Positions 39,434 through 56,133 of a DNA stretch of 64,000 nt are shown here, in pieces. The stretch spans positions 372,001-436,000 of the forward strand of contig JBDXCV010000003.1 of the NCBI GenBank assembly GCA_039980135.1, given 5' to 3'. Under the pieces are notes generated by a model, which saw nothing but the letters and a program-made list of their open reading frames with translations, was not told the DNA's origin and made no database searches. A program made the translations under genes and the position numbers. Origin of the DNA: Alphaproteobacteria bacterium. GTDB lineage: Bacteria > Pseudomonadota > Alphaproteobacteria > UBA6615. Numbering within the stretch: position 1 is the first letter of the stretch; each line of letters opens with the position of its first letter.

Positions 39434-40428
39434 CGGGTCGTTCCCCCGCTGAGCCGGATTCTTGGATCGAGCGCCGCCAGGGCGAGATCTGACAGGAGCG
39501 TGCCGATCACGACGAGGAGTGCCAGGAACATCAGGAAGGAGCCGGCGAGGAACATGTCCTGGGCACGCAGCGCGTCGAGCAGCATGCGGCCGGTGATGTC
39601 GAGGTTGAGCACCACGGCGACGACGGCGGAGCCGGAAATGACTTCCGGTAGGATCGAGCCGATATCCGCGATGAACGGGTTGAGTGCCATGCGCAGCGGG
39701 TACTTCCAGAGCAGCTTGCGCGGGGCGAGCCCCTTGGCCCGGCCGGTGACCACATACTGTTTCTGCAGCTCGTCGAGCAGGTTCGCGCGCAGGCGCCGGA
39801 TCATGCCCGCGGTGCCGGACGTGCCGATGACGATGACCGGAATCCACAGATGCTCCAACACCGAGAGCATCTTGTCGAGCGACCAGGGCGCGTTGCGATA
39901 CTGGTCGTCCATGATCCCGCCGATGGACGTGTCGAACCACTGGTTGGCCAGATACATCAGCACGAGCGCGAGCAGGAAGTTCGGGGTCGCGAGGCCGAGA
40001 TATCCGATCAGGGTCGCGACGTGATCGGACACGGAGTATTGGCGGGTCGCCACATAGGTGCCGATCACGAAGCTGACGATCCAGATGAAGGCGATGGTCG
40101 AGAAGGTCACGACAAACGTCAGCAGGATGCGCTGGCCGATCAGCTCCGACACGGGACGGTTATGCTCGAACGACCAGCCGAAATCCCCCTGGAGCAGCCC
40201 GAAGAGCCAGGAGAAATATTGTTCGACGGGGGTTTTATCGAGTCCGTAGGCGCGCCGCAGGGCCTCGATCTGGTTCTGATCCACGGCCTCGCCGCGCGAC
40301 GCCATCTCCGCGATCAGGGTCTCCAGATAATCTCCCGGCGGGAGCTGGATGATGATGAACACGATCGCGGAGACCGCGAGCAGTGTCGGGATCATCAGGA
40401 GCAATCGGTGGATGATGTAGCGAAACAT
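39430..40428 (-). CDS. Peptide-type ABC transporter permease (DppB/YejB-like)
   Basis: First inner-membrane subunit of the importer, 332 residues, with the family N-terminus RYIIHRLLLMIPTLLAVSAI, a periplasmic loop with DQNQIEALRRAYGLDKTPVE, and the EAA loop LQKQYVVTGRAKGLAPRKLL near residues 223-242. Six membrane spans. It lies 34 bp after the substrate-binding gene and overlaps the next permease by 4 bp, consistent with paired synthesis of the two membrane subunits. Confidence 0.93.
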   Translation of the reverse strand: MFRYIIHRLLLMIPTLLAVSAIVFIIIQLPPGDYLETLIAEMASRGEAVDQNQIEALRRAYGLDKTPVEQYFSWLFGLLQGDFGWSFEHNRPVSELIGQRILLTFVVTFSTIAFIWIVSFVIGTYVATRQYSVSDHVATLIGYLGLATPNFLLALVLMYLANQWFDTSIGGIMDDQYRNAPWSLDKMLSVLEHLWIPVIVIGTSGTAGMIRRLRANLLDELQKQYVVTGRAKGLAPRKLLWKYPLRMALNPFIADIGSILPEVISGSAVVAVVLNLDITGRMLLDALRAQDMFLAGSFLMFLALLVVIGTLLSDLALAALDPRIRLSGGTTR

Positions 40429-40462: not shown

Positions 40463-42346
40463 CTAGGGGCGTTCGAAGTAGAAGGTGTCGGGCAGGTAGA
40501 TGCCGAAATGGGCGCCCGGGTCCCAGGCGTAGATCGCCTTCTCGGGCACACCCTTGAGGTTCTGCATCACGACGACCGGCTGCTTGGTGCAGCACACGAC
40601 GCCGATGGTGAAGGTCTCGTCGGCGTTGATCTGCAGGATGCGTTCCCAGAATTCGGTGCGTTCGGCCTGGGACGATGCGGATTGCCAGCGGCGGAACAGG
40701 TCGAACAATTCCTGGGCCGCGGGCATGTCGATGGCGTCTCCGGCCTGGCCCTCGGTCTGATAATACTGGCCCCATTTCGGCCACTGGTACTGATCCTGCC
40801 GGGTCGGGACGAATTCCTCGGGGCTCATATTCGCGGTGACGATGCCGTTGTTCGCCCCGAACCAGACCCCCATCATGGTCTCGCCTGCGAACACCCGGTT
40901 GCGGAACACCTCGCGCTGGGACGGGCGGGTGAAGATCTTCACGCCGATGTCGAGCCAGGAATCATGGACCAGCTCGAGCACGTCGGTCTGCTCGGTCTCC
41001 TCGCCCGCGGTCTCGACGACGATCTCGAGCCGCCGCCCGTCGGGCAGCAGGCGGACCCCGTCCTTGTCGCGTTTCTCGAGGCCCATGCCATCGAGCAGCG
41101 CGTTGGCGCGGTCGAGATCGAACGCGGCCCATTTGGTCTGGAATTCCTCGCGGAACAGCGGGCTCTGCGGCAGTACCGTGTTGTTCGACGGCTGGGCGAG
41201 ACCGAAATAGATCACCTCGTTGATCTCCTCGCGGTCGATGGCGAGGCTGAGCGCGTGGCGGAAATCACGGTTGCGGAAGACCTCACGCCAGCCCGGGTCG
41301 GCGATGTGCAGGTTGGGGTAGAGCGCGATCCGCGCGCCGAGCGAGGTATCCCACAACAGGGTCTTGAAGCCCTCCTTCTCTTCCGACTGTTTCAGGAAGG
41401 TGAAGTGGCTCATGAACAGGTTGCGGGCCTGCAGGTCGATTTCGCCGGCGCTGGCCTTGGCCGGGATCAGCTTGCCGTCGGAGATGTTCATCAGGACCCG
41501 GTCGATATAGGGCAGCTGGTTGCCGGCCTTGTCGACCCGATGGAAATAGGGATTGCGCATGAACACGAACTGCTGGGCCGGCGGGCGGATCGTGTTGAAC
41601 CAGGGCTGCAGGGTCGGCAGCGCCGGGTTGTCCATGTCATAGAGATTGTCCTGGCTGTTATGCAGGGGTCCCCAGCCACGCATGCGCCGCTTCTTGATGA
41701 ATGCCTCGAGCTCGGCCGGGTCGGCGTATTTCTTGTGGAACTGCTTCAGATAATGGGCGGGCCGGTAAATGAAGGGCGGGCGCGGGCCGGCCAGTGCGGG
41801 CAGGAAGAACGGGTTCGGTTTCGACCAGCTGAAGCGAATTGTTTGCGCGTCGAGGATTTCGACCTTCGGGACCTCGCCCTCGACCTTCAGCAGGACCGGC
41901 GGCCCGAGCGGGGACAGGTCGGAATTGTTGGCCATTTCCTCCCACCAGTAACGGAAATCCTCCGTCGTGAAGGGATGGCCGTCGGACCATTTGTGATCCT
42001 TGCGGAGCTTGAAGGTAAAAATTTTGTCGTCGACCGTCTCGAAGGATTCGAGGATATCCGGCACCAGATTGTAGCCGCCGTCATAGCCGACGAGCCGGGC
42101 ATAGCCGTAGACCGTCATCAGTCGGGTGTCGCGCGCGCGGGCCATCGCGATGCGCAGATCGCCGCCATAGACGCCGGGGCCGGTGTCGATGACGCGCGGC
42201 GGACGGGGCAGCCGTTGGTCGACCGGCGGGAGGTAGCCTTCCTTGACCTCGGCCGCGAGCATGGGAGATTCCGCGAAGTCGGCGGCAGCGGTTGCCGGCG
42301 TCAAGGCGAGTGCGGCGATGATGGGGGCAATGATCTTCAGGCGCAT
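40463..42346 (-). CDS. Extracellular solute-binding protein family 5 (YejA-like)
   Basis: Periplasmic receptor of the peptide importer, 627 residues, in the size range of YejA and larger than DppA. The signal peptide RLKIIAPIIAALALTPATAA is followed by ESPMLAAEVKEGYLPPVDQR. The family 5 core is visible in SFETVDDKIFTFKLRKDHKW, DGHPFTTEDFRYWWEEM and FRNRDFRHALSLAIDREEIN. Start ATG 42346 shares one base with the stop of the ATPase gene. Substrates for relatives are oligopeptides, antimicrobial peptides, or murein or opine compounds; which applies is unknown. Confidence 0.92.
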   Translation of the reverse strand: MRLKIIAPIIAALALTPATAAADFAESPMLAAEVKEGYLPPVDQRLPRPPRVIDTGPGVYGGDLRIAMARARDTRLMTVYGYARLVGYDGGYNLVPDILESFETVDDKIFTFKLRKDHKWSDGHPFTTEDFRYWWEEMANNSDLSPLGPPVLLKVEGEVPKVEILDAQTIRFSWSKPNPFFLPALAGPRPPFIYRPAHYLKQFHKKYADPAELEAFIKKRRMRGWGPLHNSQDNLYDMDNPALPTLQPWFNTIRPPAQQFVFMRNPYFHRVDKAGNQLPYIDRVLMNISDGKLIPAKASAGEIDLQARNLFMSHFTFLKQSEEKEGFKTLLWDTSLGARIALYPNLHIADPGWREVFRNRDFRHALSLAIDREEINEVIYFGLAQPSNNTVLPQSPLFREEFQTKWAAFDLDRANALLDGMGLEKRDKDGVRLLPDGRRLEIVVETAGEETEQTDVLELVHDSWLDIGVKIFTRPSQREVFRNRVFAGETMMGVWFGANNGIVTANMSPEEFVPTRQDQYQWPKWGQYYQTEGQAGDAIDMPAAQELFDLFRRWQSASSQAERTEFWERILQINADETFTIGVVCCTKQPVVVMQNLKGVPEKAIYAWDPGAHFGIYLPDTFYFERP

Positions 42347-44244
42347 CACGCGACCTCCGGCAGGGCGCCGCGTTCCGGGTCGGCGCGTACATAGTGCCCG
42401 TCTTCCAGCTCGACGAGCCGGGGGCGGGATTGATTGTCGATTGTGAAGGGCGCTGGCCAGCGGGCCGGATCGGAGGCGCGATCCTCCATCAGGTCGGCCA
42501 GATCGAGGCGGTTGTCGAGGCTCGGCTCGGGCACGGCCGAAAGCAGCGCCTGGGTGTAGGGGTGGGACGGGTTGCGAAACAGGGTCTTCGCCGGCGCCAG
42601 CTCGACCAGGCGCCCGGCGCACATCACGGCGATCCGGTCGGCGATGTAATCGACGACCGCGAGGTTATGGCTGATAAACAGATATGTCAGCCCGAGGGCC
42701 GACTGGAGATCCTTGAGCAGGTTGAGGATCTGGGCCTGGATCGACACGTCGAGCGCGCTCACCGGCTCGTCGCAGATCAGCAGGTCCGGTTTGAGCGCGA
42801 GCGCGCGGGCGATGCCGATGCGCTGGCGCTGGCCGCCGGAGAAGCTGTGGGGGTAGCGGTTGAGGAAGCGGGGGTCGAGGCCGACCAGGCGCATCAGCTC
42901 GCGCACCGTGTCGGCGCGGGTCTCGGCCGTGCCGATGTCATGGATGACGAGGGGTTCGGCGATGATCTCGAACACGGTCATGCGGGGGTTCAGGGAGCCG
43001 AAGGGGTCCTGGAAGATTAACTGTACCCGGCGGCGGAAATCCTTGAGCTCGCGGCCCTTGAGCGCCAGCACGTCGACCGGCTGGCCGCCGTCATAGAAGG
43101 TAACGCTGCCGCTGTCGGTGGCGAGCGCACGCATGATCATCTTCGACGTCGTGGTCTTGCCGCAGCCGGATTCGCCGACCAGGCCGAGGCATTCGCCGCG
43201 CGCGATCTCGAAGCTGACATCGTCCACGGCGAGGACTGAGCGCGCTTCCTGGGAGCCGAAATAGCTGCCCTTGCGGATCAGGAAGCTCTTGGAGATGCCG
43301 TCGACCTTGAGAAGCGGTGTGCCGGCGGCCGCCTGGGGCGCGCGGTCGGCATCGGGCTTGATCAACTCACCGGATTCCGCCTTGATCTCGCGCAGCGGCA
43401 CGAGGCGTTCGCCCTCGGCGAGGCCGAAGCGCGGCACGGCGTTGAGCAGCGCCTTGAGATAGGGGTGGCCGGGTGCGCGATAGATATCCTCGACGGTGCC
43501 GCTTTCCATCACCTTGCCGCGGAACATCACCACGACCTCCTCGGCGACGTTCGCGACCACGCCCAGATCATGGGTGATCATCAGGACCGCCATGTCGAGT
43601 TCCGACTGAAGGTCCTTGATCAGCTTCAGGATCTGCGCCTGGATCGTCACGTCCAATGCGGTGGTGGGTTCGTCGGCGATGAGCAACGCGGGACGGCAGA
43701 CCAGCGCCATGGCGATCATGGCGCGCTGGCGCAGCCCACCCGACAGCTCGAAGGGATAGGTCTTGAGCGCGCGGGGCGGGTCGGGGAAGCCGACCAGGCG
43801 CAGCATGTCGGCGGCGAGCTCGGTGCCGGTCTGCTTGTCCACGTCGCGGTGCAGGTGGAGTGCCTCGGTGATCTGGTCGCCGACCGTGTGGAGCGGCGAC
43901 AGGGATGTCATCGGTTCCTGGAAGATCATCGACACCCGGCCGCCGCGGATTGACCGCATTGCCTTGCCGTCGCGTTCCAGTTTCGCCAGATCGACCGGGG
44001 TGCCGTCGCCGCGCGGATCGGTGAACAAAATCTCACCGCCGGCGATGCTGCCGATGTTCGGGAGGATGCCCATGATGGCCTGGCTGCAGACCGACTTGCC
44101 CGAGCCGGATTCGCCGACCAGTGCCGTGGTGCCGCCCTGGCGGACCCGGAAGGACACGCCGTCCACGGCGCGCAGCTGGTCACCGTGCACGGTGAAGTCG
44201 ACCTTGAGGTCGCGAACGGTCAGGAGGTCGGTCATCGTCGCCAA
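42346..44244 (-). CDS. Fused double ATPase of peptide-type ABC importer (DppD-DppF / YejF-like)
   Basis: Both nucleotide-binding domains of the importer in one 632-residue chain. The first has Walker [11 protein letters not shown] (about residues 39-48) and signature [15 protein letters not shown]; the second has [10 protein letters not shown] (about residues 345-354) and [15 protein letters not shown]. Each carries an intact Walker B ([22 protein letters not shown]) and ends with the oligopeptide C-terminal extension ([26 protein letters not shown]). The start may be ATG 44244 or 44235; it overlaps the upstream gene by up to 13 bp. ATP hydrolysis motifs are complete, in contrast with the ABC protein at 51414. 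Confidence 0.95.
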
Positions 44245-44777
44245 TCCGCCGGGTTGCCCCAGCCGGTGAGGGCCGCGGGAGTGGGGTCATGATCCGGCAT
44301 AATCGCGCCGAGACCAAGGGCCGCAAAGTTGCGCGCGCTGGCATCGGTGAGTTCGATGTCGAGCTGACGGGCGGCCTCGAAGGCGGCGCGGCAGATGGTC
44401 TCGAAATCCTCCAGCGCGGAGTTGAGCGCGATGGTGCGGTTTGCCCCCTGAAGCTTGAGCTGCATCCAGCCGGCCTCGCGATCGCGCCGGGTCGAGAAAT
44501 AGGAAAGCTTTACGGTGGCGAGGTCTGGCCACGGAATGTTTGCGCCACCGGGGCCTCCGGTTGAAATGCCATCCGAATCCACCCGCACCGTAATCGCCCG
44601 GTTGCGCCAGGTGCGTAGCCCGAAGATGGCGAACAACACGGCGGGGATGGCGAAAACCAGGGTGACGACGATACCGAAATCGACGGCGGCCAGAGGCACC
44701 AGGCAACAGAAGAGCCCGATGCCGGCGCGCAGCAGATCCGCGTTGATGGCGCGGGGCGAGTAGCGGTGACGGGTCAT
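44232..44777 (-). CDS. Conserved membrane protein with PH-like domain
   Basis: A 181-residue protein I cannot name. Two hydrophobic spans near the N-terminus (LRAGIGLFCCLVPLAAVDFG and IVVTLVFAIPAVLFAIFGLR) are followed by a soluble, PH-domain-like beta region (ITVRVDSDGISTGG, NIPWPDLATVKLSYFS, GWMQLKLQGANRTIALNSAL) and a C-terminal tail. That layout resembles bPH or DUF-type membrane proteins. It is locked into the operon: its ATG overlaps the deacetylase stop by 4 bp and its stop overlaps the ATPase start. Its conserved place between deacetylase and ABC importer is the best clue to function. Confidence 0.72.
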   Translation of the reverse strand: MTRHRYSPRAINADLLRAGIGLFCCLVPLAAVDFGIVVTLVFAIPAVLFAIFGLRTWRNRAITVRVDSDGISTGGPGGANIPWPDLATVKLSYFSTRRDREAGWMQLKLQGANRTIALNSALEDFETICRAAFEAARQLDIELTDASARNFAALGLGAIMPDHDPTPAALTGWGNPADWRR

Positions 44778-45595
44778 GTGATCGCGAATACCTCGGCGGG
44801 GGATTGCCAGACTACCGCAGGGTGGGCCCGGGTGCGGTTCACAAATTCGCCCACAAAGGCGTGCATGTCGTCGTTCATGTCGGCGTGATGGGTCATCAGG
44901 CCGGTTGGTTCGTTTGTGTCGGCGTCACCGGTGCGCCGCGCGGTCAGATGTTTCAGCGTGTCGTCGATAATATTGTCCGCCCCCATGAAGCCTCGCGCCA
45001 TGCCGGTTCGTTTGCCGTGCCAATCGATCACGTCGAGATGAACATTGGATTGACGCAACCCCCGGACGGGGGCCTCGCGCTTGCGTGCGCCGATGGTGCT
45101 CAATCCCCGAATGCCGATCTCCGGCAGGAAGGGAACGATGTGCGGGGCTATTCTGTTCCAAGGTGGCACGAGCACGGGAAGGCGACTGGCGAATTTTTCC
45201 AATGCCTGGCCGCCCATCGCCAGATCGGCGACCACATACTCGGCCGGGCGGCTGTCGTCGAGCTCGATCTTGCGGCCCTCCCCGGCGTTGAAGTCCTTGT
45301 GGGAGTAACCGTGCTGCAGGACCGAGATGCCCGTCTCGTCCGCCAGTCGGTCCCGCAGGCCGCCGGTGGCGTTCGCGGGAATGACGGCCAGTGCGAGGGG
45401 AATATCAAGCTGGGCGCGCTGTTCCAGCAACCGGTCGAGCGCGGGCGTGTGGTCGGCGGCGTCGTCGTCGCGCCACCAGAAGCTCGCAGTCAGGCCGTCG
45501 CCCGCCCAGCTGTCGAGTTCACCCATGAGGGCGCCCCACGCCGAATCCGGCATGTCAGAGCTGTCGGGCATAGAATTTGGCATAGCCGGGGCCAT
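44774..45595 (-). CDS. Polysaccharide deacetylase-like (NodB-fold) protein
   Basis: About 273 residues of NodB-like carbohydrate esterase fold. The metal-binding first motif appears as WWRDDDAADHTPALDRLLEQ (canonical TFDDG), the second as HGYSHKDFNAGEG (H-x3-H type), and the later PPWNR as motif 3. There is no signal peptide, so the substrate is cytoplasmic or the enzyme acts on a lipid-linked intermediate at the membrane. The start is uncertain: ATGs at 45595, 45583, 45571 and 45553 are all in frame and none has a good ribosome site. It is the first gene of the peptide-importer operon and also the gene next to the glycosyltransferase operon. Confidence 0.8.
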   Translation of the reverse strand: MAPAMPNSMPDSSDMPDSAWGALMGELDSWAGDGLTASFWWRDDDAADHTPALDRLLEQRAQLDIPLALAVIPANATGGLRDRLADETGISVLQHGYSHKDFNAGEGRKIELDDSRPAEYVVADLAMGGQALEKFASRLPVLVPPWNRIAPHIVPFLPEIGIRGLSTIGARKREAPVRGLRQSNVHLDVIDWHGKRTGMARGFMGADNIIDDTLKHLTARRTGDADTNEPTGLMTHHADMNDDMHAFVGEFVNRTRAHPAVVWQSPAEVFAIT

Positions 45596-45745
45596 GGGTT
45601 TGCAAACACTCCCTGCGCGGCCCGAACCCCCCAATCCGGACTGTCTCCCAGCCATCAGACTAGCCGGTTCGAGAGCCGGGAGTAACCCGGATTTCGGGGA
45701 AATTCATGGTTAACTCAGGTCAAGGTCGGGCCAGGTCCGGACTGA

Positions 45746-46921
45746 TCAGGCGCCGCGGTGGCGATTCAGCGCCGATTTCAGGATTTCCGCGCTGTTCCGC
45801 GCACCGCCGAGGTCGAGGCCGGAATCGGTGGCCCGATCGACGGTTACCGCCCGATCGACCGCCGCGGCGACGGCCGGCGGGTTGACTGCGTCGGGTTCGA
45901 TGATTTGCAGGGCCCCCCGGTCCGCCAGCAAGCGGCAGCGCAGGGTCTGTTCGCTTTCGAGCCCGCCTGCATAGGGGATGCAGACGGCCGGCGTGCGGGC
46001 GGCCAGAACCTCCATCACCGTGTTGTAGCCGCCCTGGGAAATCGACAGCCGGCAATTCGCGAGCAACCGAGGAAAATCGGGCCGCGATCGCTCGACCGTG
46101 ATCCCGCCGGGTGCGCTGTCGCGGTATGCCGTAAAGTCTGTTTCCGGCAAATTGTGACCGATCAGGACCCGCCACGGCGCATCCGACAGGCCGGGTGCGG
46201 CGGTCAGCGCGCGCGCGCCGATGGCCGCTTCGAGCATGTCGTCGCTCACCGCGCCGCCGCCGGTGGACACGATGACCTCGCCCGCGCCGGGGCCCTTCTC
46301 GTTGCGCGCGGGCGCCGGATCCACGACATAGCCGGTGTAGCGGGAGATATCCGCGATCTCGGACATGCGGGGAAAGGTCTCGTCGAAGGCGATGAAGTCG
46401 GGGTCGCCATGGATCAGCACGAGGTCGAAAAAGTCGCGGGTCCGCGTCACCATCTCGTCGATGCGCTCGGGCTTGCCGGGTTCGACCAGGATGTCTCGTA
46501 CCGACGAGACAATGAGCGGCCGATTGGTGCCCTGCCCGCGGGCGGCTGCGATGAGAGGCTCGATCTCGAAACGCATCTGCCGGCGCCCGAACGGATACAT
46601 CTCGATCAGGATGATGTCCGGCTGCTCGTCTTCGAAAATCGCAAGCAAATGGTCGCGTCGGCGGGCCTTCCACGCGTCGTCGATCCTGTTGTCGTCCGCG
46701 TCGACCAGCACCTTGAAGAACTTGTCGGTCGCGCGGGTCGGCGGCAGCTGGGCGAAGCGCGCGGCCCCAGCGTCAAAGCCGGGCACGGCGGTGCCGCCAG
46801 ACACCAGCAGCACGTCGAAACCTCCGGCGTCGAGCGCGCGGGCCAGGGTGCCGGTGCGCATCAGATGGCCGATGCCCAGCAGATGTTGCACGTAGAACAG
46901 AATTTTCGGGCGCGGGCTCAT
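45746..46921 (-). CDS. MurG-like glycosyltransferase
   Basis: GT-B fold transferase, 391 residues. The N-terminus KILFYVQHLLGIGHLMRTGT corresponds to the glycine-rich acceptor loop of MurG/GT28 enzymes, and the C-terminal domain has VIVSTGGGAVSDD and the donor-binding SISQGGYNTVMEVLAARTPA (about residues 292-311). It is the last gene of a five-gene operon and overlaps the phosphatase by 4 bp. It is a paralogue of the gene at 49971 (same loop, FGLGHLRRC there). Donor and acceptor are unknown; peptidoglycan MurG itself is expected elsewhere in the division cluster. Confidence 0.85.
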   Translation of the reverse strand: MSPRPKILFYVQHLLGIGHLMRTGTLARALDAGGFDVLLVSGGTAVPGFDAGAARFAQLPPTRATDKFFKVLVDADDNRIDDAWKARRRDHLLAIFEDEQPDIILIEMYPFGRRQMRFEIEPLIAAARGQGTNRPLIVSSVRDILVEPGKPERIDEMVTRTRDFFDLVLIHGDPDFIAFDETFPRMSEIADISRYTGYVVDPAPARNEKGPGAGEVIVSTGGGAVSDDMLEAAIGARALTAAPGLSDAPWRVLIGHNLPETDFTAYRDSAPGGITVERSRPDFPRLLANCRLSISQGGYNTVMEVLAARTPAVCIPYAGGLESEQTLRCRLLADRGALQIIEPDAVNPPAVAAAVDRAVTVDRATDSGLDLGGARNSAEILKSALNRHRGA

Positions 46922-47538
46922 TTGCCGGTGCCTTGTGTCGGCGCGGCGAGCGAAACATTGAGCGCATCGATTTCCGCGCTGCCGTCAGGTGACGCATGGA
47001 AGATCTGTGCCTTGCGCCGCGACATCTCGTCCGGAGTTTCGCCGGTCAGGTTCCAGCCGGTGGCCAGCGCATAGACGGTGCGGATGACCCCGCGATGGGT
47101 GACGACGATGCGCGGCGCGGGGTCGGTGGCGAGTTCCGCCAGCGCATCGGCGACCCGTGGCAGCATGTCGAGCCGGCTCTCCCCGCCTTCGGGCCGATGG
47201 TCGCCCAGGTGGGCGTCGTCGCCGAGTTTGGCCTCCATTTCGTGCAGGTTCCGGCCTTCCCAAATGCCCCAATGCTTCTCGACCAGACGCTCGTCATAGG
47301 TGATCGGCCCGAGGCCCGGATTGTTGGCCTTGAGGATGTCCGCCGTTTCGCGACAGCGGACGAGCGTGCTGGCGACGATCGGCAGGCCGGCGAGTTCGCC
47401 CAGAAAATCGGAGGGCAAACGCCAGGCAGCGACCATGGCGCGCCCGTCGTCATTCAGCGGGATGTCGCGGCGGCCCTGCATGCGCCGCTCGACATTCCAG
47501 TCGGTCAGGCCGTGACGGATAAAGGCGAGCCGGGTCAC
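46918..47538 (-). CDS. Histidine phosphatase (phosphoglycerate-mutase family)
   Basis: A 206-residue phosphatase with the catalytic RHG motif in AFIRHGLTDWNVERRMQGR (about residues 5-23), STLVRCRETADI and the second catalytic histidine in RIVVTHRGVIRTVYAL. It is not glycolytic-mutase length, so a small-molecule or sugar-phosphate phosphatase is most likely. It overlaps both neighbours by 4 bp inside the glycosyltransferase operon. A plausible job is dephosphorylating a sugar or nucleotide-sugar product, but that is inference from position. Confidence 0.88.
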   Translation of the reverse strand: MTRLAFIRHGLTDWNVERRMQGRRDIPLNDDGRAMVAAWRLPSDFLGELAGLPIVASTLVRCRETADILKANNPGLGPITYDERLVEKHWGIWEGRNLHEMEAKLGDDAHLGDHRPEGGESRLDMLPRVADALAELATDPAPRIVVTHRGVIRTVYALATGWNLTGETPDEMSRRKAQIFHASPDGSAEIDALNVSLAAPTQGTGK

Positions 47539-48692
47539 GCGGCGCGCCCGGCGATGGAGACGGTGTTCAGGGTGGAGTCGAGCATGGCGGCCGCCGTGGG
47601 GAGATCGAACTTGGCGCCGATCCGGCGCATGGCGGCGGTGCCCATCCGGGCGCGCAGGTCCGAATCGTCCATCAGGCGCCGGACCGCTGCGGCAAACGCG
47701 TCGGGGTCGCCCGGAGCGGGCAACAATCCGGTCACGCCGGATCCGACAATATCCGGTACGCCGCGCGCCTTGCCGGCGATCACGGGCAGGCCCGCGGCCT
47801 GCGCCTCGAGTAGCGCGATACCGAATGCCTCATCGACGGCCGGCCAGACGAGGATGTCGGCGAGCGCGTAGGTCTCGGCCAGGCGTTCGGGCTGGAGCGT
47901 GCCGAGTAATCTGACCCGGCCGGGTGCCGCGGCCTCCAACGTCGCCTCGATCTCCGCGCGTCGGGGGCCGTCGCCCGCGACGAGCAGGCGCCAGTTTCCC
48001 CCGTCGAGCTGCGGCAGCGCGGCGGCGAGCTGTTCGTAGGAGTCCTGCTTGGCGCCGGCCCGCATCATGCCGACCGCCAGCAGAATCAAGGCGTCGGCAG
48101 GCCAGCCGGTGTCGCGGATGAGCGCGTCACGCAGATTGCCGCGCCGTGCGGCCGCTGCCGTGAACGGGGCGGCGTCGACGAAAGGAAACATCCGCCGGTG
48201 AAGCACCGGCGGGGTCGCGACCGGCTGGAGGCAGTCCCAGTCGTCGCTGTTGAGGGTGAGGATCGCATCGGCACGCGCGATGGCGGCGTTGGCGCCCCGG
48301 TAGCCGATGTCCCACGGACCGCCGGCGCGTTTGGGTGCGGTGGACGCCTCGGTGATGATGTAGGGAATGCCAAGTGAATCCGCGACCGGTGGGCCGATCC
48401 AGTCAGGGGCCTTGTGATAGACGTGATAGGTGAACCAGGCCTCGGGACGTTCATGCGGCGGGCGTGCCGCGAGGCGCCGGATCAGCCGCGCGGCGAATTT
48501 CTCGCCCAGGACCCTGAGCCGAGCCTGGCGGTCCGGGTCGCCTGCCCCGTCCCGGCTGACGAATCGCGAGACGAGCTCGGGTTTGTGACCGGCATGGCGG
48601 AGTGCGAGCAAGAGCAACCGCGCCAGATGGCGATCGCCCGAGGGAACCGGATGATCGGGCGGCTTCATCGGCGCGTAGAACGCGATACGCAT
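47535..48692 (-). CDS. Glycosyltransferase family 4
   Basis: GT-B transferase of 385 residues, opening MRIAFYAPMKPPDHPVPSGD with the P-S-G-D acceptor loop. The donor domain has WRLLVAGDGPRRAEIEATL and the E-x7-E region DEAFGIALLEAQAAGLPV (about residues 307-324). The frame runs upstream to 48776, but ATG 48692, 1 bp after the previous stop, is the real start. It overlaps the phosphatase by 4 bp. The acceptor is unknown; GT4 enzymes here are probably retaining. Confidence 0.88.
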   Translation of the reverse strand: MRIAFYAPMKPPDHPVPSGDRHLARLLLLALRHAGHKPELVSRFVSRDGAGDPDRQARLRVLGEKFAARLIRRLAARPPHERPEAWFTYHVYHKAPDWIGPPVADSLGIPYIITEASTAPKRAGGPWDIGYRGANAAIARADAILTLNSDDWDCLQPVATPPVLHRRMFPFVDAAPFTAAAARRGNLRDALIRDTGWPADALILLAVGMMRAGAKQDSYEQLAAALPQLDGGNWRLLVAGDGPRRAEIEATLEAAAPGRVRLLGTLQPERLAETYALADILVWPAVDEAFGIALLEAQAAGLPVIAGKARGVPDIVGSGVTGLLPAPGDPDAFAAAVRRLMDDSDLRARMGTAAMRRIGAKFDLPTAAAMLDSTLNTVSIAGRAA

Positions 48693-48693
48693 G

Positions 48694-49974
48694 TCAGGCG
48701 GCTGCCGCGCTGGTGTCGGATGCAGGCGGGCCGGCGGCGTCGCGCAGGTCGTCGGCGATCGCGTCGAGGCCCGCATTCATGTCGAAACGCTCCCGCACAT
48801 TGCGCGCACCGGCGGCGGCGATCGCCGCCCGGCGCCCGGCGTCTGCGGCCAGCGTCTGAATTGCGTCGGCGAGTGCCGCCGGATCACCTGGCGCCGTCAG
48901 AATACCGGTCTCGCCATCGGTGATCAGTTCGGGGATGCCCGCCTCGTCGGTTGCCACGCAGGCCACGCCCATCGACTGGGCTTCGAGCAGCACGTTGGGC
49001 AGCCCGTCGCGATCGCCGTCGGGCGCGATCTTGCTGGCCAGTACGAACATGTCGGCGCGGGCGAGCAGCGCGCGGACGTCGGTCTGGGGCTGGCGCCCGT
49101 GCCAGTCGATCCGGCCGTCGATGCCGAGCCGCCGGGCCTGATTTTGAAGCGCGCCGGACAGCGCGCCGCCGCCGATATGTTCGAGCCGCCAGTCAAGATC
49201 AGCCGGAAGGCGGGCGAGCGCATCAAGCAGGTCGTCATAGCCTTTCTTGGCCACGAGGCGCCCGACCGACGCAATCTGAAGCGGTCCGGTCGTGTCGGCG
49301 GTTTTGTCGGGAGAGTCGTTCCGGGGGAAGCGCGCGAAATCGAGGCCGTGATAATTCAGATGAATCCTGTCCGAGACGTCGCCTGCGAGCGAGCGCAGCT
49401 GTTCGGCCCCGGCGCGGGTGCAGGTCGTCAGCCACGCCGCGTCGGTAATCTTTTCAGCGATGTCCCAGTCCGGGGTCGTCCAGATGTCCTTGGCATGGGC
49501 GGACACGGCGAACGGCAGGCCGCGCATCGTCGCGGCGTAGCGGGTGACGGAGGCCGGCGTGTGCAGGAAATGGGCGTAGAGCAGGTCTGTAGCCGTGTCG
49601 AGATCGGCGGCGAGTACGCAGGCCTGGCCGAAACGGCGTATTCGATTGGGCGTGCGATCACGGCGCCAGTCGGCGCGGAATCTCGACCAGGCGGCGCGAT
49701 AGCCGGGCAGACGTCGTGCGCGCCGCCAGCCGCGCAGAACCCGCAGGGGTTCACGCCAGAGATACTCGGGCAGATAGGTGACGGGCGCGCTGATCTCGTC
49801 ATGGATCGGATGGGTCGCGGGATCATAGGGCGCGCGCAGTGACTGGATGTCGAGCGCGAACCCGCGTGCTTCGAGGCCGTGAAGTTCCTGGGCGATGAAG
49901 GTTTCGGAAAGGCGCGGATAGCCCTTCACGATCACGGCGATGCGTGATCCGGCCGGCAATGTCCCGGGGCTCAA
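48694..49974 (-). CDS. Glycosyltransferase family 4
   Basis: A 426-residue GT4 enzyme of the colanic-acid-transferase type. The N-terminus RIAVIVKGYPRLSETFIAQE is the recognised acceptor-domain start, and the donor domain shows QIASVGRLVAKKGYDDLLDA, WRLEHIGGGALSGAL and RDGLPNVLLEAQSMGVACVA with the E-x7-E pair. It overlaps the upstream MurG-like gene by 4 bp and is followed 1 bp later by the next GT4. Two consecutive GT4 genes suggest two sugar additions to a growing chain. Confidence 0.9.
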   Translation of the reverse strand: MSPGTLPAGSRIAVIVKGYPRLSETFIAQELHGLEARGFALDIQSLRAPYDPATHPIHDEISAPVTYLPEYLWREPLRVLRGWRRARRLPGYRAAWSRFRADWRRDRTPNRIRRFGQACVLAADLDTATDLLYAHFLHTPASVTRYAATMRGLPFAVSAHAKDIWTTPDWDIAEKITDAAWLTTCTRAGAEQLRSLAGDVSDRIHLNYHGLDFARFPRNDSPDKTADTTGPLQIASVGRLVAKKGYDDLLDALARLPADLDWRLEHIGGGALSGALQNQARRLGIDGRIDWHGRQPQTDVRALLARADMFVLASKIAPDGDRDGLPNVLLEAQSMGVACVATDEAGIPELITDGETGILTAPGDPAALADAIQTLAADAGRRAAIAAAGARNVRERFDMNAGLDAIADDLRDAAGPPASDTSAAAA

Positions 49975-51233
49975 GAGTGACCCGTATGCTGCCCGGATCT
50001 GCCGCGATCGACGACATGCATGCCCGCATGGCGGCGTCCGGCGGCGATTTCGACGAGCCGGTTCACATTGCGCAGACCATCGAGAAGGCCCGGCACGACG
50101 ACTTCCGAGGGCACGCTCTGCTGCGGCAGATGTCGGAGCGCGGTCGCCATCACCTTCCAGTCGGGCAGCGAGGTCTGGTCGATGGCAGCCGCTTCTGGGA
50201 CGAGCATCTTCACCAGCCCCATCTCCTGCATGCGCGATGCGCGCAGAAATTGTTCGAGGCGCGGCTTGGTACGCGGCACGATCAGCGACGGCCGATCGAA
50301 GGACAGGATTTCACACACCGTGTTGTAGCCGCCCATGGCGACGATCCCGGCCGCATCCGAAATCAGGGATTCGGGGTGCGTGTCGAAGGTGACCGATTCG
50401 ACATTGTGCAGCCGGGCGATCCGGGCGGTGAATTGCGAGACGAGGTCGGGGTCGAGAAACGGCCCGAACATGAAGAAGGCGGGCACCGGCTGCGCGGAAT
50501 CATTCTCGTAGGCGCGCAACACCCAGTCGAACATGAGCTCGCCGTCGCCGCCGCCGCCGGCCGTGACCATTATATATGGCCGGTCGCCGAAAGGTTTGTC
50601 GGCATCGAGGGCGGCCGCGCCGCTTCGCACCGCGCGGCGCAGATACCCGGTATAGCTGGTCTTGCGCGCGATGGCGCCCGGCAGGTCGAGTCCTTCGAGC
50701 GGGTTCGAGACCTGGGGCAGGCCGTAGATCCAGATTTCGTCGTAGAGATTTTCCAGCGCCGGCAGCACGTTCTTGGTCTGCCATTCGGGCGCCAGCAGGA
50801 GCGGATCATCGAGAATGTCGCGCAGGCCGAGGATCAGCTGGGTGCCGCGTTTCTTGAGGGCAACGAGGGTGTCGAGCACTTCGCCGCGCAGGCCGTGGGG
50901 CTCCTTGTCGACGATAAACACGTCGGGCTCGTAGGACAGCGCTGTGTGGCGAATGATGTTGGCGCGCAGGGCGACCGTTTCCTCGATGTCCATCGGCAGT
51001 TTCAGGGGCTTGTACTCCCCGTTCTGCAGCTTGATGACACCGGGGATGCGCACGAAATCGACCCGGTCGCGGAATTCGAAGTTCCCGATAATCGGGGAGC
51101 CGGACAGGATCAGCACACTCAGGCCCGGATCGTGCTGGACCAGCGCATGCGCGATGGCGCGGCAGCGGCGCAGATGGCCGAGGCCGAAGGTATCGTGGCT
51201 GTAGATCAGGACTCGCCGGTTGCGCGTGGGCAA
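49971..51233 (-). CDS. MurG-like glycosyltransferase, first gene of the operon
   Basis: A 420-residue GT-B protein with the N-terminal VLIYSHDTFGLGHLRRCRAI loop, IVTAGGGGDGELMFD-type donor domain start (YIMVTAGGGGDGE) and GIVAMGGYNTVCEILSFDRP near residue 305. The frame opens at TTG 51239, but TTG 51233 has GGGAG six bases upstream and gives MPTRNRRVLIYSHD, so I prefer it. It shares fold and loop with the gene at 45746, so the operon is bracketed by paralogues. It diverges from the large ABC protein gene across 180 bp. Confidence 0.85.
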   Translation of the reverse strand: MPTRNRRVLIYSHDTFGLGHLRRCRAIAHALVQHDPGLSVLILSGSPIIGNFEFRDRVDFVRIPGVIKLQNGEYKPLKLPMDIEETVALRANIIRHTALSYEPDVFIVDKEPHGLRGEVLDTLVALKKRGTQLILGLRDILDDPLLLAPEWQTKNVLPALENLYDEIWIYGLPQVSNPLEGLDLPGAIARKTSYTGYLRRAVRSGAAALDADKPFGDRPYIMVTAGGGGDGELMFDWVLRAYENDSAQPVPAFFMFGPFLDPDLVSQFTARIARLHNVESVTFDTHPESLISDAAGIVAMGGYNTVCEILSFDRPSLIVPRTKPRLEQFLRASRMQEMGLVKMLVPEAAAIDQTSLPDWKVMATALRHLPQQSVPSEVVVPGLLDGLRNVNRLVEIAAGRRHAGMHVVDRGRSGQHTGHS

Positions 51234-51413
51234 AACCAACTCCCGTTCGTGGCGCGCGTTCGCCGGGACTATGGCACAACCCGGTTATTCGCCGAAAGTC
51301 CTTGATTCATCAACAATCGGAAGAACTTGCTCGCGAATGAGTTACCGTTTTTGCTTGTATGCGCTAGTCTCCGCTCTGATATGCGTGAAGTATAGAGTTT
51401 CCGGGAGAAGCGT

Positions 51414-54092
51414 GTGAACGAACGTCTCGAACGCAGCATGTACAGTTTTGTGCTGCGCTACAGCGGACGCCAGCAGCTGGGCATACTGGCTTTCGTGGTG
51501 TTGTCCTGGCCCGTGGGTTTCATGCTCCTGGATCTGCCCAAGCAGATTATCAACCGGGCCCTGGAAGCGAAGGAGGATGTCTTCCAGCTGGCGGTCCTGG
51601 GGGCGCTGGAGATCCCGCTGCAGGTCTCCCAGTCCACCTTCCTTGTCATCCTGTGCACCGTTTTCCTGGCGCTCGTTGTCGTCAACAACGGGCTCAAGTT
51701 CCACATCAACACGACCAAGGGGCGGACGGCCGAACGGCTCCTGCGCCGCCTGCGCTATGCGCTCTATTCCCGGGTCCTGCGATTCCCGATCCCGCGCTTC
51801 AAGCGGACCAGCCAGGGCGAGATCATCTCCATGATCACCGCCGAGACGGAGCCGGTCGGCGCCTTCTTTGTGGGTGCGGTGGTCGATCCGATCTTCCAGG
51901 GCGGGCTGCTGCTCGTGGCGATCGGCTTCATCATTGTTCAGAATCCGTGGCTCGGCCTGGCCGCCGCTGCCTTCTATCCGCTGCAAATCTATGTGGTGCC
52001 GCGGCTGCAGAAAAAGGTCAGCGCGTTGGGCAAGGCCCGGCTGCGGGAAATACGCCATTTGTCGGATCATGTGGGCGAGACCGTCAGCGGTATCGTCGAC
52101 ATCCACGCCAATGACGCCTCGAACCTGGAACTCGCGCGTTTCACGGACCGCCTGAGCAACATCTACAATATCCGGTTCGAGATTTTTCAACGCAAGTACA
52201 TGATCAAGGCGCTGAACAACTTCCTCGACAAGCTGGCGCCATTTCTCTTCTACCTGTTCGGCGGCCTGCTGGTGATCGACAACAAGCTCGATATTGGACA
52301 GCTTGTGGCGGTGATCGGCGCGCATCGGGAGATGTCGTCGCCGTGGAAGGAAATGCTCAACTGGTACCAGCAGCAGGCCGATGCGCGGGTCAAGTATGAC
52401 CAGGTGGTCAGCCAGTTCGATGTTGACGGGATGCTCGACGATGCGATGCAGCACACCGACCCCGAGCCGGGTTTCTCGCTGGCCGGCGAGATCGATATTT
52501 CGAATCTCAGCCTGGTCGACGAAGACGAAGTGCGCCGGCTCGCCAATCTGACGATCAAGCAGGTCACCGATTCCAATCTTGCGGTCGTCGGCGCGGGCAA
52601 CAGCGGGAAAGATTATCTCGGCCAGGTGCTGGCGCGGCTCGCGGTTCCCACATCGGGCCAGATCAAGATTGCCGGCCATGACCTGACCGCGCTGCCGGAA
52701 TCGGTCACCGGCCGGCGCATGACCTATGTGTCGGGGGCGCCGTTCATGCAGTCCGCCAGCGTGCGCGATAATCTTCTCTACGGGCTCAAGAACCGCCCGC
52801 TGCGCCCGGCCGATTATGATGACGAGGAGGCCCCCGCGCGCGAACGGGACTTCGCCGAGGCCGCACGCACCGGTAACATCGTGTTCGACTATCGGGCGGA
52901 TTGGGTCGATTTCGAGGCGGCCGGCGTCGAGAATATGGACGAGCTGTTCACCCGCCTGATCCAGGTGCTCGATATCGTCGAAATGTCCGACGACATCTAC
53001 AATCTCGGCCTGCGCGGCACGATCGACCCGGATCGCCGCCAGGACATCGCCGAGGCCGCACTGAAGGCCCGCGCGGGCCTCACCGAACGCCTGAGCGAGC
53101 CGGAATATGCCGGGCTGGTCGAGAAATTCGACAGGTCGCGCTACAACACCAATGCCAGCGTGGCGGAGAACCTCCTGTTCGGCACGACGGTCGGCGATGC
53201 ATTCGATCACGATCGCATGGCCGAGAATGATTATGTGCTGCAGGTCCTGCGCGATGCCGACCTGATCGACGACATGCTGGCGGCGGGACGGTCGGTCGCC
53301 GAGACGATGATCGAAATCTTCGCGGATTTGCCGCCCGGCCACGAATTCTTCGAACAATATTCCTTTATCAGCTCGGACGATCTGCCAGAGTTCCGCACGC
53401 TCCTGTCGCGCACGGAAAAGAGCGGCGCTGACGACATGCGGCCCGAGGATCGCGCATCGCTGCTGTCGCTGCCGTTCAAGGTGGTGACCGCGCAGCACCG
53501 GCTCGGGGTCGTCACGGACGAACTGGAGACGAAGATTCTTCGCGCCCGCGAACTGTTCGCCGAGAACCTGCCCGATGATCTTCGCGGCGGGGTCGAGTTT
53601 TTCGAGCCGGAGAAATATAACGCTGCGGGGTCGCTCCAGGACAACATCCTGTTCGGCAAGCTGGTCTATGGACAGGCGGAGGGCATGCGCCGGATCGGCG
53701 GCCTGGTGGCGGAGACGCTCGACAATCTCGGGCTTCGCGGCGCGGTTCTCGAAGCGGGGCTGGAATTCCAGGTCGGGGTCGGCGGCAGCCGCCTGTCGTC
53801 CGGTCAGCGCCAGCGCATGGGTATTGCCAGGGCCCTGCTCAAGCGCGCCGATATCATGGTGTTGAACGAATCATCTTCGGCGCTCGACCCGGCAGCCCAG
53901 GACCGCCTCGCCGCGAAGGTGCTCGAAGCCCGCGGCGGCCAGGGTGTGGTCTGGGTCGCGAACCGGGCCTCGATGGCGTCGCAGTTTGCCCAGGTCGCCG
54001 TGCTGGCCGATGGCCAGATCGCCGAACAGGGCAGCTATGACGAGTTGAACAAAGAGGGGACGGCCCTGCATGAACTGCTTCAGTCCTCCTAG
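51414..54092 (+). CDS. Aberrant ABC exporter-like protein with triplicated Q-loop segment
   Basis: An 892-residue chain. Residues 1-330 form a type I exporter membrane domain (about six spans; LRFPIPRFKRTSQGEIISMI intracellular loop). The ATPase region starts near 358 and is abnormal. Walker A reads GAGNSGKD (393-400; Asp replaces Ser/Thr). The segment usually found once after the Q-loop occurs three times: ASVRDNLLYG (448-457), ASVAENLLFG (581-590) and GSLQDNILFG (739-748), separated by about 130-150 residues of inserted, charged helical sequence. Signature LSSGQRQ is intact (794-800), but Walker B is IMVLNES (N818 for Asp) and the H-loop histidine is N850. GTG 51414 has GGGAGA upstream. Substrate unknown; reduced ATPase is likely. 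Confidence 0.85.
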   Translation: MNERLERSMYSFVLRYSGRQQLGILAFVVLSWPVGFMLLDLPKQIINRALEAKEDVFQLAVLGALEIPLQVSQSTFLVILCTVFLALVVVNNGLKFHINTTKGRTAERLLRRLRYALYSRVLRFPIPRFKRTSQGEIISMITAETEPVGAFFVGAVVDPIFQGGLLLVAIGFIIVQNPWLGLAAAAFYPLQIYVVPRLQKKVSALGKARLREIRHLSDHVGETVSGIVDIHANDASNLELARFTDRLSNIYNIRFEIFQRKYMIKALNNFLDKLAPFLFYLFGGLLVIDNKLDIGQLVAVIGAHREMSSPWKEMLNWYQQQADARVKYDQVVSQFDVDGMLDDAMQHTDPEPGFSLAGEIDISNLSLVDEDEVRRLANLTIKQVTDSNLAVVGAGNSGKDYLGQVLARLAVPTSGQIKIAGHDLTALPESVTGRRMTYVSGAPFMQSASVRDNLLYGLKNRPLRPADYDDEEAPARERDFAEAARTGNIVFDYRADWVDFEAAGVENMDELFTRLIQVLDIVEMSDDIYNLGLRGTIDPDRRQDIAEAALKARAGLTERLSEPEYAGLVEKFDRSRYNTNASVAENLLFGTTVGDAFDHDRMAENDYVLQVLRDADLIDDMLAAGRSVAETMIEIFADLPPGHEFFEQYSFISSDDLPEFRTLLSRTEKSGADDMRPEDRASLLSLPFKVVTAQHRLGVVTDELETKILRARELFAENLPDDLRGGVEFFEPEKYNAAGSLQDNILFGKLVYGQAEGMRRIGGLVAETLDNLGLRGAVLEAGLEFQVGVGGSRLSSGQRQRMGIARALLKRADIMVLNESSSALDPAAQDRLAAKVLEARGGQGVVWVANRASMASQFAQVAVLADGQIAEQGSYDELNKEGTALHELLQSS

Positions 54093-54137
54093 CGCGGGGC
54101 GGGGCGGAAACCGGTGGCCGATGGGGAGTAACGAAAC

Positions 54138-54590
54138 GTGAGCCTGAACGAAGAAGTCGAACTGCTGCGGAATATCCCGCTGTTTGCGAAACTCGAGCCG
54201 TCGAAGCTGAAGCTGTTGGCGTTCACGGCCGAGCGCATCACCTATGAGCCGAACCAGGTCCTGTTCAACCAGGGCGATGTGGGCGACGCGGCCTATATCA
54301 TTGTCGACGGGGCGGCGAAGGTGATCGTCGACACGCCGGACGGCGAACTCGAAGTGGCATCGCTGGGGCGCAATGATTTCGTCGGCGAAATCGCGATCCT
54401 GTGCGATGTGCCCCGCACGGCCACTGTGCGGGCGAGCGCCAAGACCGTCACCCTGAGAATTACCAAAGACCTGTTCTTTCGTCTGGTGGCCGAGTTCCCG
54501 GAGATGTCGGTCGAGATCATGCGGGAGCTGGCGTCACGCCTGGAGCACACGACCCAGCAGTTGCGCGAGGCGCTGGCGCAAAACTCGTGA
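54138..54590 (+). CDS. Single-domain cyclic-nucleotide-binding protein
   Basis: A 150-residue protein that is only a cNMP-binding domain, with no DNA-binding helix-turn-helix, kinase or channel part. The phosphate-binding cassette is complete: F81-V-G-E84-I-A and P92-R93-T-A-T, with Glu for the ribose hydroxyl and Arg for the cyclic phosphate. A long C-terminal helix (LASRLEHTTQQLREALAQNS) could mediate dimerisation or binding to a partner. It lies 46 bp after the aberrant ABC protein and overlaps the methyltransferase (GTGA). The layout suggests it regulates the ABC protein in response to cAMP or cGMP; this is inference. Confidence 0.92.
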   Translation: MSLNEEVELLRNIPLFAKLEPSKLKLLAFTAERITYEPNQVLFNQGDVGDAAYIIVDGAAKVIVDTPDGELEVASLGRNDFVGEIAILCDVPRTATVRASAKTVTLRITKDLFFRLVAEFPEMSVEIMRELASRLEHTTQQLREALAQNS

Positions 54591-55075
54591 GCCGGCTCGA
54601 CAGTTTCATCCGGCGCATGCAGGCGCAGCGCGACTGCCTCAACAACGCGGCCGGGATGATCGCCGACGTGCCTGGTGCGGTGTTCGATCTGGGTCTCGGC
54701 AATGGCCGCACCTTCGATCATTTGCGTGAGACCCTGCCCGACCGCGAGGTTTTCGTGTTCGACCGGGTGGTGAACGCCAATCCCAAAAGCACCCCCGACG
54801 CCGACCATCTGTTTCTCGGCGAGGTGGTCGACCAACTGGCCTTGCAACAGAGCCGCTTCGCGAACGCCGTGGCGCTGGTGCATTCGGACCTCGGGACGGG
54901 CACCGCGGAGGATGCGCCGCTGACCGCGGCCCTGATCCCGCTGTTGCGCCCGGTGCTGGCATCCGGAGCGGTTCTGGTGGCGAACAATCCGTTTCCCGAT
55001 GCCGGGTGGGAGGCCCTGCCGCTGCCGGACGGCGTGCCGGCGGAGCGCTATTTCATGTATCGGGTTGGCGCTTAG
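54587..55075 (+). CDS. Small class I SAM-dependent methyltransferase
   Basis: A 162-residue protein, with N-terminal SRLDSFIRRMQAQRDCLNNA and the SAM-binding motif I VFDLGLGNGRTFDHL (about residues 31-45), then EVFVFDRVV (acidic end of strand 2) and HLFLGEVVDQLAL. It resembles the short Methyltransf_17 group (name from memory). The start GTG 54587 overlaps the stop of the cNMP-binding gene (GTGA), so the two are coupled. Acceptor unknown; O-methylation of a glycan is possible given the neighbours, but a protein or lipid is equally allowed. Confidence 0.8.
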   Translation: MSRLDSFIRRMQAQRDCLNNAAGMIADVPGAVFDLGLGNGRTFDHLRETLPDREVFVFDRVVNANPKSTPDADHLFLGEVVDQLALQQSRFANAVALVHSDLGTGTAEDAPLTAALIPLLRPVLASGAVLVANNPFPDAGWEALPLPDGVPAERYFMYRVGA

Positions 55076-55199: not shown

Positions 55200-55988
55200 C
55201 TAGGCGTCGATCTCGACCACGACAGGCACATGGTCCGAGCTCTTCACCCAGTCACGTGCGTCGCGCAGAATCTCGTAGGACTTCAGCTTCGATTTGAGCG
55301 CCGGCGTGACCCAGACATGGTCGAGGCGGCGGCCCCGGTCGGATGCCCGCCAGTCCTTCGCCCGGTAACTCCACCAGCTGGCGAGCTTTTCCTCGTCCCC
55401 GGCGAAATGGCGGACCGCGTCGACCCAGCCATGGGCGGTTTGCACCCGATCCAGCGCCTCCACCTCCACCGGCGTGTGGCTGACCACGTCGAGGAGCTGC
55501 TTGTGTGACCAGACGTCGGATTCCAGCGGGGCGATGTTGAGGTCGCCGACGAGCACGCGCTTGGCGCGCGGGCTGGCGATGTCCGCCAGCCAGTCTGTCA
55601 TCTCGTCGAGGAACTGGAGCTTGTGGGCAAATTTGTCGTTCTTTTTGGGGTCCGGCACGTCACCGCCGGCGGGCACGTAGAAGTTGTGAACCTCTACCCC
55701 GCCCGCGAATTTTGCCGTGACATGGCGGGCGTCCTCGCGTCCGCACCAGTCGCGTCCACCCGTCGCGGTGAAAGGCAGCTTCGACAGGATCGCGACGCCG
55801 TTATACGCCTTCATCCCGCGCACATGGCGGTGGGGATACAGGTCCGCCACCGTGTTGTGGGGGAACAGCTCGTCGACCACCTTGGTTTCCTGCAGGCAGA
55901 CAACATCGGGCGCGGCAAGTTCGTCGAGTTGTGCGAGGTGATGGGCCCGCATGCGGACCGAGTTGATGTTCCAGGTCGCGATCCGCAT
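55200..55988 (-). CDS. xth: Exodeoxyribonuclease III
   Basis: AP endonuclease and 3'-5' exonuclease of base excision repair. The 262-residue protein begins MRIATWNINSVRMRAHHLAQ, has the metal-binding glutamate in VVCLQETKVVD (Glu near residue 34), the VLVGDLNIAP Asp/Asn pair near residue 150, and the C-terminal RLDHVWVTPAL and SSDHVPVVVEID with the catalytic His. The frame continues upstream to 56054, but ATG 55988 gives the family N-terminus exactly. An inverted-repeat element fills the region immediately upstream, so its promoter must lie in or beyond it. Confidence 0.96.
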   Translation of the reverse strand: MRIATWNINSVRMRAHHLAQLDELAAPDVVCLQETKVVDELFPHNTVADLYPHRHVRGMKAYNGVAILSKLPFTATGGRDWCGREDARHVTAKFAGGVEVHNFYVPAGGDVPDPKKNDKFAHKLQFLDEMTDWLADIASPRAKRVLVGDLNIAPLESDVWSHKQLLDVVSHTPVEVEALDRVQTAHGWVDAVRHFAGDEEKLASWWSYRAKDWRASDRGRRLDHVWVTPALKSKLKSYEILRDARDWVKSSDHVPVVVEIDA

Positions 55989-56010
55989 CGCTCGGCTTCT
56001 CCGGCTGCCC

Positions 56011-56133
56011 CTTCGAGACGACCGCTGCGCGGCCCCGTCAGGGTAAGGTTTCAAATATAATCCTCATGCTGAGGAGCGGACTTTTTATAGCCAAACCTCA
56101 GAATGAGGAGTGGCGGAAAGCCGCGTCTCGAAG
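56011..56133. repeat. Dispersed inverted-repeat element, second family
   Basis: A 10-bp perfect outer inverted repeat, CTTCGAGACG (56011-56020) and CGTCTCGAAG (56124-56133), encloses two CCTCA-type palindromes, CCTCATGCTGAGG (56062-56074) and CCTCAGAATGAGG (56096-56108). The pattern is reminiscent of a common alphaproteobacterial intergenic repeat. It occupies the xth upstream region. Confidence 0.65.

Follow-up and report, generated by a model that had tools for sequence, protein, structure and literature searches.

A conserved alphaproteobacterial gene cluster, possibly for a surface glycan, that joins glycosyltransferases to an aberrant ABC protein and a cyclic-nucleotide-binding domain

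Why should glycosyltransferases, a membrane ATP-binding cassette (ABC) protein with an unusual ATPase domain and a free-standing cyclic-nucleotide (cNMP)-binding domain lie together at one locus? The question arises from a 64,000-nucleotide stretch (hereafter the window) of contig JBDXCV010000003.1 in a 3.76 Mb alphaproteobacterial genome (G000; assembly GCA_039980135.1). The original prediction saw eight genes there, namely, two MurG-like transferases (GTa and GTd), two GT4 transferases (GTb and GTc) and a phosphatase, facing an ABC protein, a bare cNMP-binding domain and a small methyltransferase, and read them as an undescribed envelope-glycan system. This divergent eight-gene set was confirmed: all eight open reading frames (ORFs) are present, Pfam agrees with the transferase and phosphatase calls (GTd scoring just below the GT28-C cut-off), the cNMP protein carries PF00027 and no DNA-binding domain, and the operons diverge, with a spacing of 174 bases rather than 180 bp. 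The inventory was incomplete, because an oligopeptide-type importer, an adenylate cyclase, a deacetylase-like gene and a gene for a 181-aa protein had been overlooked. The minus-strand operon runs on beyond position 45746 through the deacetylase-like gene, the 181-aa gene and the importer, and the cyclase stands at the far end on the opposite strand. The cluster thus comprises about sixteen adjoining genes (Table 1), preserved as a block in many alphaproteobacteria. It is partly known, since some of its genes have been studied in Rhizobium etli, a bean-nodule bacterium.

To what extent do these genes travel together? Of 190 genomes drawn evenly from the class and representing about 146 families, 59 carry the full-type ABC protein (>300 bits), 58 carry GTd (E up to 1e-40) and 45 the methyltransferase family Methyltransf_17. 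The ABC protein and GTd occurred together in 56 genomes, the former alone in 3, the latter alone in 2 and neither in 129 (Fisher p 7.5e-42, shared ancestry ignored). For the ABC protein and the methyltransferase, the corresponding numbers were 43, 16, 2 and 129 (p 9.3e-27, shared ancestry again ignored), and Methyltransf_17 was found in 0 of 14 control genomes. In a 299-genome sample of the phylum, GTd was present in 24 genomes, 22 of them belonging to Alphaproteobacteria, and the ABC protein is present in 16 of 24 genomes of the window's own order.

Linkage was counted in two samples of loci, each containing the ABC gene and at least 7 kb upstream of it: sample A (49 loci) and sample B (54 loci, including Azospirillum, Sneathiella, Nisaea, Kiloniella, Inquilinus, Reyranella, Tistrella and many metagenome assemblies). 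The entire five-gene operon was divergent and within 8 kb of the ABC gene in 26/49 and 31/54 loci, respectively. Counted singly in the same orientation and distance, GTd was found in 33 and 39 loci, GTc in 33 and 43, GTb in 30 and 41, the phosphatase in 29 and 36, GTa in 29 and 40 and the deacetylase in 27 and 35. The cNMP gene lies no more than 1.6 kb downstream of the ABC gene, or is fused to it, in 51/54 and 72/73 loci of two sets. In some relatives the arrangement is different: the transferase operon follows the cNMP gene on the same strand (loci L085 and L090) or stands away from the ABC gene with the importer still alongside (L217-L222 and L226); in L222 the methyltransferase sits between GTc and GTd with the ABC gene elsewhere, and in L223 the cNMP and methyltransferase genes adjoin GTd without an ABC gene. 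That the pieces keep contact after rearrangement, in several gene orders, counts for one linked system. Linkage across alphaproteobacteria is therefore strongly conserved rather than scattered, and together with the co-occurrence it backs the conserved, envelope-glycan type of system that had been proposed.

Of all the genes, those of the importer accompany the transferases most constantly, even where the ABC gene is elsewhere. Its ATPase gene adjoins the deacetylase/GTa end or the GTd end in 36 of 40 further regions, the exceptions being L214, L215, L223 and L225, some of which are incomplete regions. This constancy raises the alternative of an import-side system, in which the importer is central and takes up peptides or muropeptides, the transferases and phosphatase modify or detoxify the imports or remodel the wall, and the ABC/cNMP pair regulates the process or exports by-products. 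The nearest family names of the importer are oligopeptide importers, and in R. etli the importer and transferases lie in one gene run. There, the opt operon is said to contain an oligopeptide importer together with redA and redB, and opt mutants reportedly are altered in oligopeptide uptake and in their response to bacitracin and ampicillin. By contrast, transferase clusters on an Escherichia coli plasmid and outside the class are accompanied by an exporter-type ABC protein, with no importer found there; four transferases and a deacetylase are more than salvage requires; and SBP5 proteins bind sugars too. We consider an import-side system unlikely, although it deserves to be kept in view.

What kind of protein is the ABC partner? 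Its nucleotide-binding domain (NBD) contains a Q-loop/helical element ('NILFG') three times, at residues 436-464 (R1), 569-592 (R2) and 727-750 (R3). Profile-profile comparison gave probabilities of 98.7 for R2-R3, 95.0 for R1-R3 and 89.5 for R1-R2; among five other pairs, three controls gave 0.3-0.4, and two pairs of segments following R1 and R2 gave 33.6 and 67.0, values consistent with a longer repeated unit. An AlphaFold model (24 sequences; mean pLDDT 81, pTM 0.75) has an exporter-like transmembrane domain (TMD) and an NBD core with a break between its Q-loop region and its signature. Whole-model Foldseek and a profile search for solved relatives each returned only generic ABC exporters, the closest NCBIfam model is MsbA, far below its cut-off, and we know of no described ABC protein of such build.

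Motifs were compared in 134 of 140 homologues, after identical and broken ones were dropped. Asn586, Asn744 and Gly748 are invariant in all 134, and the signature is retained (Leu794 in 132, Arg799 in 129, Gln800 in 126), but the Walker A Ser/Thr is present in only 13, the Walker B Asp in 17, the Q-loop Gln in 36 and the H-loop His in 38; the window protein has D400, N818 and N850 at the decayed ATPase motifs. Because these residues have decayed, active transport by the window protein is uncertain. The ABC_membrane domain agrees with the "transporter-like" label of the original prediction, but the family-wide decay means that the label needs caution. It also suggests that the protein might not transport anything: with its ATPase dead, it could serve in the membrane as a cAMP-responsive regulator of the transferases or as their scaffold. 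Such a role is consistent with the conserved TMD and signature, the large helical insertion in the NBD, the intact cNMP pocket alongside and the TMD-only paralogues found in the same genomes. However, the Walker A position is Lys or Arg in 117 of the 134 homologues and the catalytic Glu is kept in 75, and related transferase pairs elsewhere accompany an ordinary ABC exporter, so that we regard a pure regulator or scaffold as distinctly improbable.

The TMD-only paralogues are about 313-413 aa long, lack an NBD and share their genomes with the full protein (L228:7104-8069, that is G000:C3:1048127-1048996, and L229, L230, L232-L234, L236, L238, L239, L241 and L242); no common neighborhood was seen among them. 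A different partial form is found at L268:9403-10440 (G211) and in G318, G326, G443 and G341:C88, where frames of about 863-1016 aa match the window protein over about residues 511-848 only. The match covers the unusual NBD part, and the N-terminal half has diverged.

Is the neighboring cNMP protein still able to bind a ligand? Glu84 is conserved in 121 of 127 homologues and Arg93 in all 127, and we take these to be the residues of the phosphate-binding cassette. Unlike CRP/FNR regulators, the protein is the domain alone, without a helix-turn-helix. A single ABC-cNMP polypeptide is encoded in G040 (L076), G105 (L086), G154 (L093 and L094; two genes), G022 (L095) and Azospirillum ramasamyi. The combination of a tripled NBD element, decayed ATPase residues and an intact cNMP pocket, fused in several lineages, appears from the sequences to be new within the literature searched.

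Cyclic AMP (cAMP) is the likely ligand, because a class III adenylate cyclase gene belongs to the cluster; its translation contains FFDIRGF and GDG, presumably the metal-binding Asp motifs of that class. The cyclase adjoins the importer in the rhizobial loci (R. etli, Rhizobium leguminosarum and Sinorhizobium meliloti) and lies 1-2 kb past the cNMP gene in L264. Of 38 importer loci, seven others having been dropped as too short, 11 have a cyclase within 4 kb past the importer; of 107 ABC loci, those with <3 kb on either side being left out, 8 have one no more than 6 kb from the ABC gene. In 14 genomes (about 60.8 Mb) there are 231 cyclases, 14 of them in the window genome, or approximately one per 263 kb, a density biased upward because several of these genomes were chosen for showing a nearby cyclase; this background predicts about 0.8 cyclases for the 38 importer flanks, where 11 were observed.

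What, then, might the product be? The motifs of GTd, the phosphatase and the deacetylase-like protein are intact, and those of the last are conserved in 79 homologues. The deacetylase-like protein had no Pfam hit, and a sequence search found no solved relative for it or GTd; the Azospirillum gene at the same place is annotated as polysaccharide deacetylase family. A UDP-glucose or nucleotide-sugar dehydrogenase accompanies the rhizobial loci, and a polysaccharide lyase accompanies that of S. meliloti. A glycan product is favored because of the intact motifs, the rhizobial sugar-nucleotide dehydrogenase, the S. meliloti lyase and the polysaccharide-type neighbors of GTd-GTc outside the class; the envelope-glycan interpretation is thus partly supported. 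MurG/GT28-type enzymes work at the membrane on lipid acceptors, and the MurG-like and GT4 enzymes might instead decorate a membrane lipid that the ABC protein flips. The TMD does resemble lipid flippases, and MsbA is the best, although far too weak, NCBIfam model. However, no gene for handling acyl groups or lipids was seen among the conserved members, and the lyase and sugar dehydrogenase neighbors favor a polysaccharide, which makes a glycolipid pathway very improbable.

The importer binding protein is single-copy in the window genome, the only other match having 31% identity over 101 residues. Its best solved relatives, 5ipw (annotated for oligopeptides) and the pectin binder SPH1118, are about equally close. 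In a hand-read alignment, Arg57 and Arg438 of SPH1118 are replaced by Thr and Glu, respectively, and Trp594 is retained, so that an SPH1118-like pectin specificity, which had been considered, is not supported.

Taken together, we tentatively favor, at close to an even chance, a cluster that makes a surface glycan, probably an acidic one, whose export is controlled by cAMP and whose fragments are salvaged or sensed through the importer. We infer its working as follows. The four cytoplasmic GT-B transferases (GTd, GTc, GTb and GTa) would build the sugar chain, the phosphatase would strip phosphate off a precursor or intermediate, and the deacetylase-like protein and methyltransferase might trim or cap the chain. 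Passage of the product across the inner membrane, either as such or linked to a lipid, would fall to the ABC protein, with the cNMP protein as its detachable regulatory domain, sensing cAMP from the adjacent cyclase. The importer may return glycan fragments, or glycan-linked peptides, for salvage or sensing. A more specific version, which we think doubtful, is a cAMP-gated glycan export machine built on a new ABC subfamily with three tandem Q-loop/helical elements and weakened catalysis, in which the cNMP subunit rather than ATP hydrolysis alone would set the state, cAMP would come from the cluster's own cyclase, and returned fragments would serve as feedback.

Several observations weigh against the glycan-export reading. 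The decayed Walker and H-loop residues mean that the pump may be inactive; 16 of the 59 ABC-positive genomes lack the methyltransferase; and no gene for a polymerase, a priming transferase or an exporter of the outer membrane was noted among those of the cluster. A uronide ligand for the importer is unsupported because two of the three pectin residues of SPH1118 are not kept, and opt mutants of R. etli are reportedly affected in oligopeptide uptake. The cyclase linkage is confined to a minority of loci, and the pocket of the L094 fusion is degenerate by eye, which argues against universal cAMP control.

Table 1. Coordinates of the cluster genes in the window
Feature	Position	Strand	Family or remark
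Class III adenylate/guanylate cyclase (AC), membrane N-terminus	36782..38188	+	PF00211, 44.6 bits
Oligopeptide-type importer permease 2 (OppC-like)	38207..39430	-	PF00528 + PF12911; conserved neighbor; ORF to 39940, start probably near 39430
Oligopeptide-type importer permease 1 (OppB-like)	39430..40428	-	PF00528, PF19300
Importer substrate-binding protein, SBP_bac_5	40463..42370	-	PF00496; ORF to 42622
Importer double ATPase	42346..44244	-	Two ABC_tran + oligo_HPY
Conserved 181-aa protein	44232..44777	-	Without Pfam or NCBIfam family; syntenic in relatives
Polysaccharide-deacetylase-like protein	44774..45655	-	WRDDD, HGxxH, PPWNR motifs
GTa, MurG/GT28-like glycosyltransferase	45746..46921	-	PF04101 (GT28-C), above cut-off
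Histidine phosphatase (His_Phos_1)	46918..47538	-	PF00300, 124 bits; RHG + second His intact
GTb, GT4 glycosyltransferase	47535..48776	-	PF00534; probable real start near 48692
GTc, GT4 glycosyltransferase	48694..49974	-	PF00534; orthologue of R. etli redB
GTd, GT28-like glycosyltransferase	49971..51239	-	Orthologue of R. etli redA; GT28-C 21.1 vs cut-off 22
Divergent intergenic region	51240..51413	.	174 bases between operons
Aberrant exporter-like ABC protein	51414..54092	+	ABC_membrane 82.4 bits + split ABC_tran
Stand-alone cNMP-binding domain, 150 aa	54138..54590	+	PF00027
Methyltransf_17 S-adenosylmethionine methyltransferase	54587..55075	+	PF12692, 178.5 bits; solved relative 3iht

Except at GTb/GTc, neighboring transferase and phosphatase genes of the minus strand overlap by 4 bases. 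The 181-aa protein has, by eye, two membrane helices and a soluble domain. Two Methyltransf_17 genes adjoin the ABC/cNMP pair in L042, L044, L049, L050 and L068. The gene at 55200-56054, presumably Exonuclease III-like, is a frequent neighbor of the cluster in relatives, and a functional tie is improbable.

In alphaproteobacteria, nitrogen-fixing rhizobia among them, the cluster joins genes that are annotated singly as generic transferases, transporters or a "Crp/Fnr regulator." It also gives the ABC protein, whose NBD is very unusual, a set of partners that can be tested. Should control by cAMP hold, cAMP would be acting on envelope assembly directly and not through transcription, and this could explain, in part, why these genomes have so many cyclases.

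How does the cluster compare with known systems? In R. etli CIAT 652, the order is UDP-glucose 6-dehydrogenase, cyaA, an oligopeptide ABC transporter (four genes), redA, redB, a glycosyltransferase, a "multidrug ABC transporter" and a "transcriptional regulator," and tblastn identified these as orthologues of the importer, GTd, GTc, GTa, the ABC protein and the cNMP protein. Oligopeptide importer genes and the redA/redB orthologues thus lie in one cluster, which we take to be the opt operon of Vos et al. 2007. The claim that the system is undescribed holds in part: no paper recognizing the conserved whole, or describing its composition or the Methyltransf_17 link, was found in the open-access literature, but in R. 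etli, R. leguminosarum and S. meliloti the locus is annotated, and that of R. etli matches the opt operon. These three loci (on pSymB in S. meliloti) share with the window GTd, GTc, GTa, the ABC and cNMP proteins, an adenylate cyclase and the importer, whose ATPase, binding-protein and two permease genes keep the same order. Unlike in the window, no phosphatase or Methyltransf_17 match was found in the Rhizobium stretches compared, and the genes all run one way. The pSymB locus has the R. etli gene order plus the polysaccharide lyase; in S. meliloti 1021, about 13 kb separates the deacetylase and GTb from GTd, which comes after them, whereas the window has a single block. The ABC orthologue of strain 1021 is split over two reading frames (L181:41724-44376), and in strain 2011 it is one piece (residues 1-870).

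The msbA2/SMb21188-SMb21190 operon for polysaccharide export in S. meliloti likewise pairs transferases with an exporter-type ABC protein. MsbA2 (SMb21191) was rejected as the orthologue, because SMb21188 lies near 938 kb of pSymB and the orthologue of the window ABC protein lies at 841.7-844.4 kb; tblastn of pSymB 928-952 kb gave no match to the window transferases and only generic NBD matches.

A match to a known capsule or O-antigen locus was likewise considered, and Pfam matched none of the cluster proteins to Wzx, Wzy, Wzm or Wzt, as had been predicted for the first three. The E. coli plasmid NZ_CP012498.1 (L186) has the order GT28-GT4-GT4-ABC-APH-APH-alginate export-sugar dehydrogenase, and a non-alphaproteobacterial cluster (L261) has GTd-GTc homologues with heparinase II/III, a phosphotransferase and an ordinary ABC exporter. 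As in the window, homologues of GTd and GTc keep their order in both and lie near an ABC protein, but that protein is of ordinary length and matches the window ABC protein only in the generic NBD, and no cNMP, Methyltransf_17 or importer match was found in either. GTd-like genes occur in 10 Escherichia plasmid records. Finally, the window ABC protein shares its TMD fold and NBD core with exporters of the MsbA/PglK type, and differs from them in its decayed ATPase residues and an insertion of about 265 residues that carries the two extra Q-loop/helix copies.

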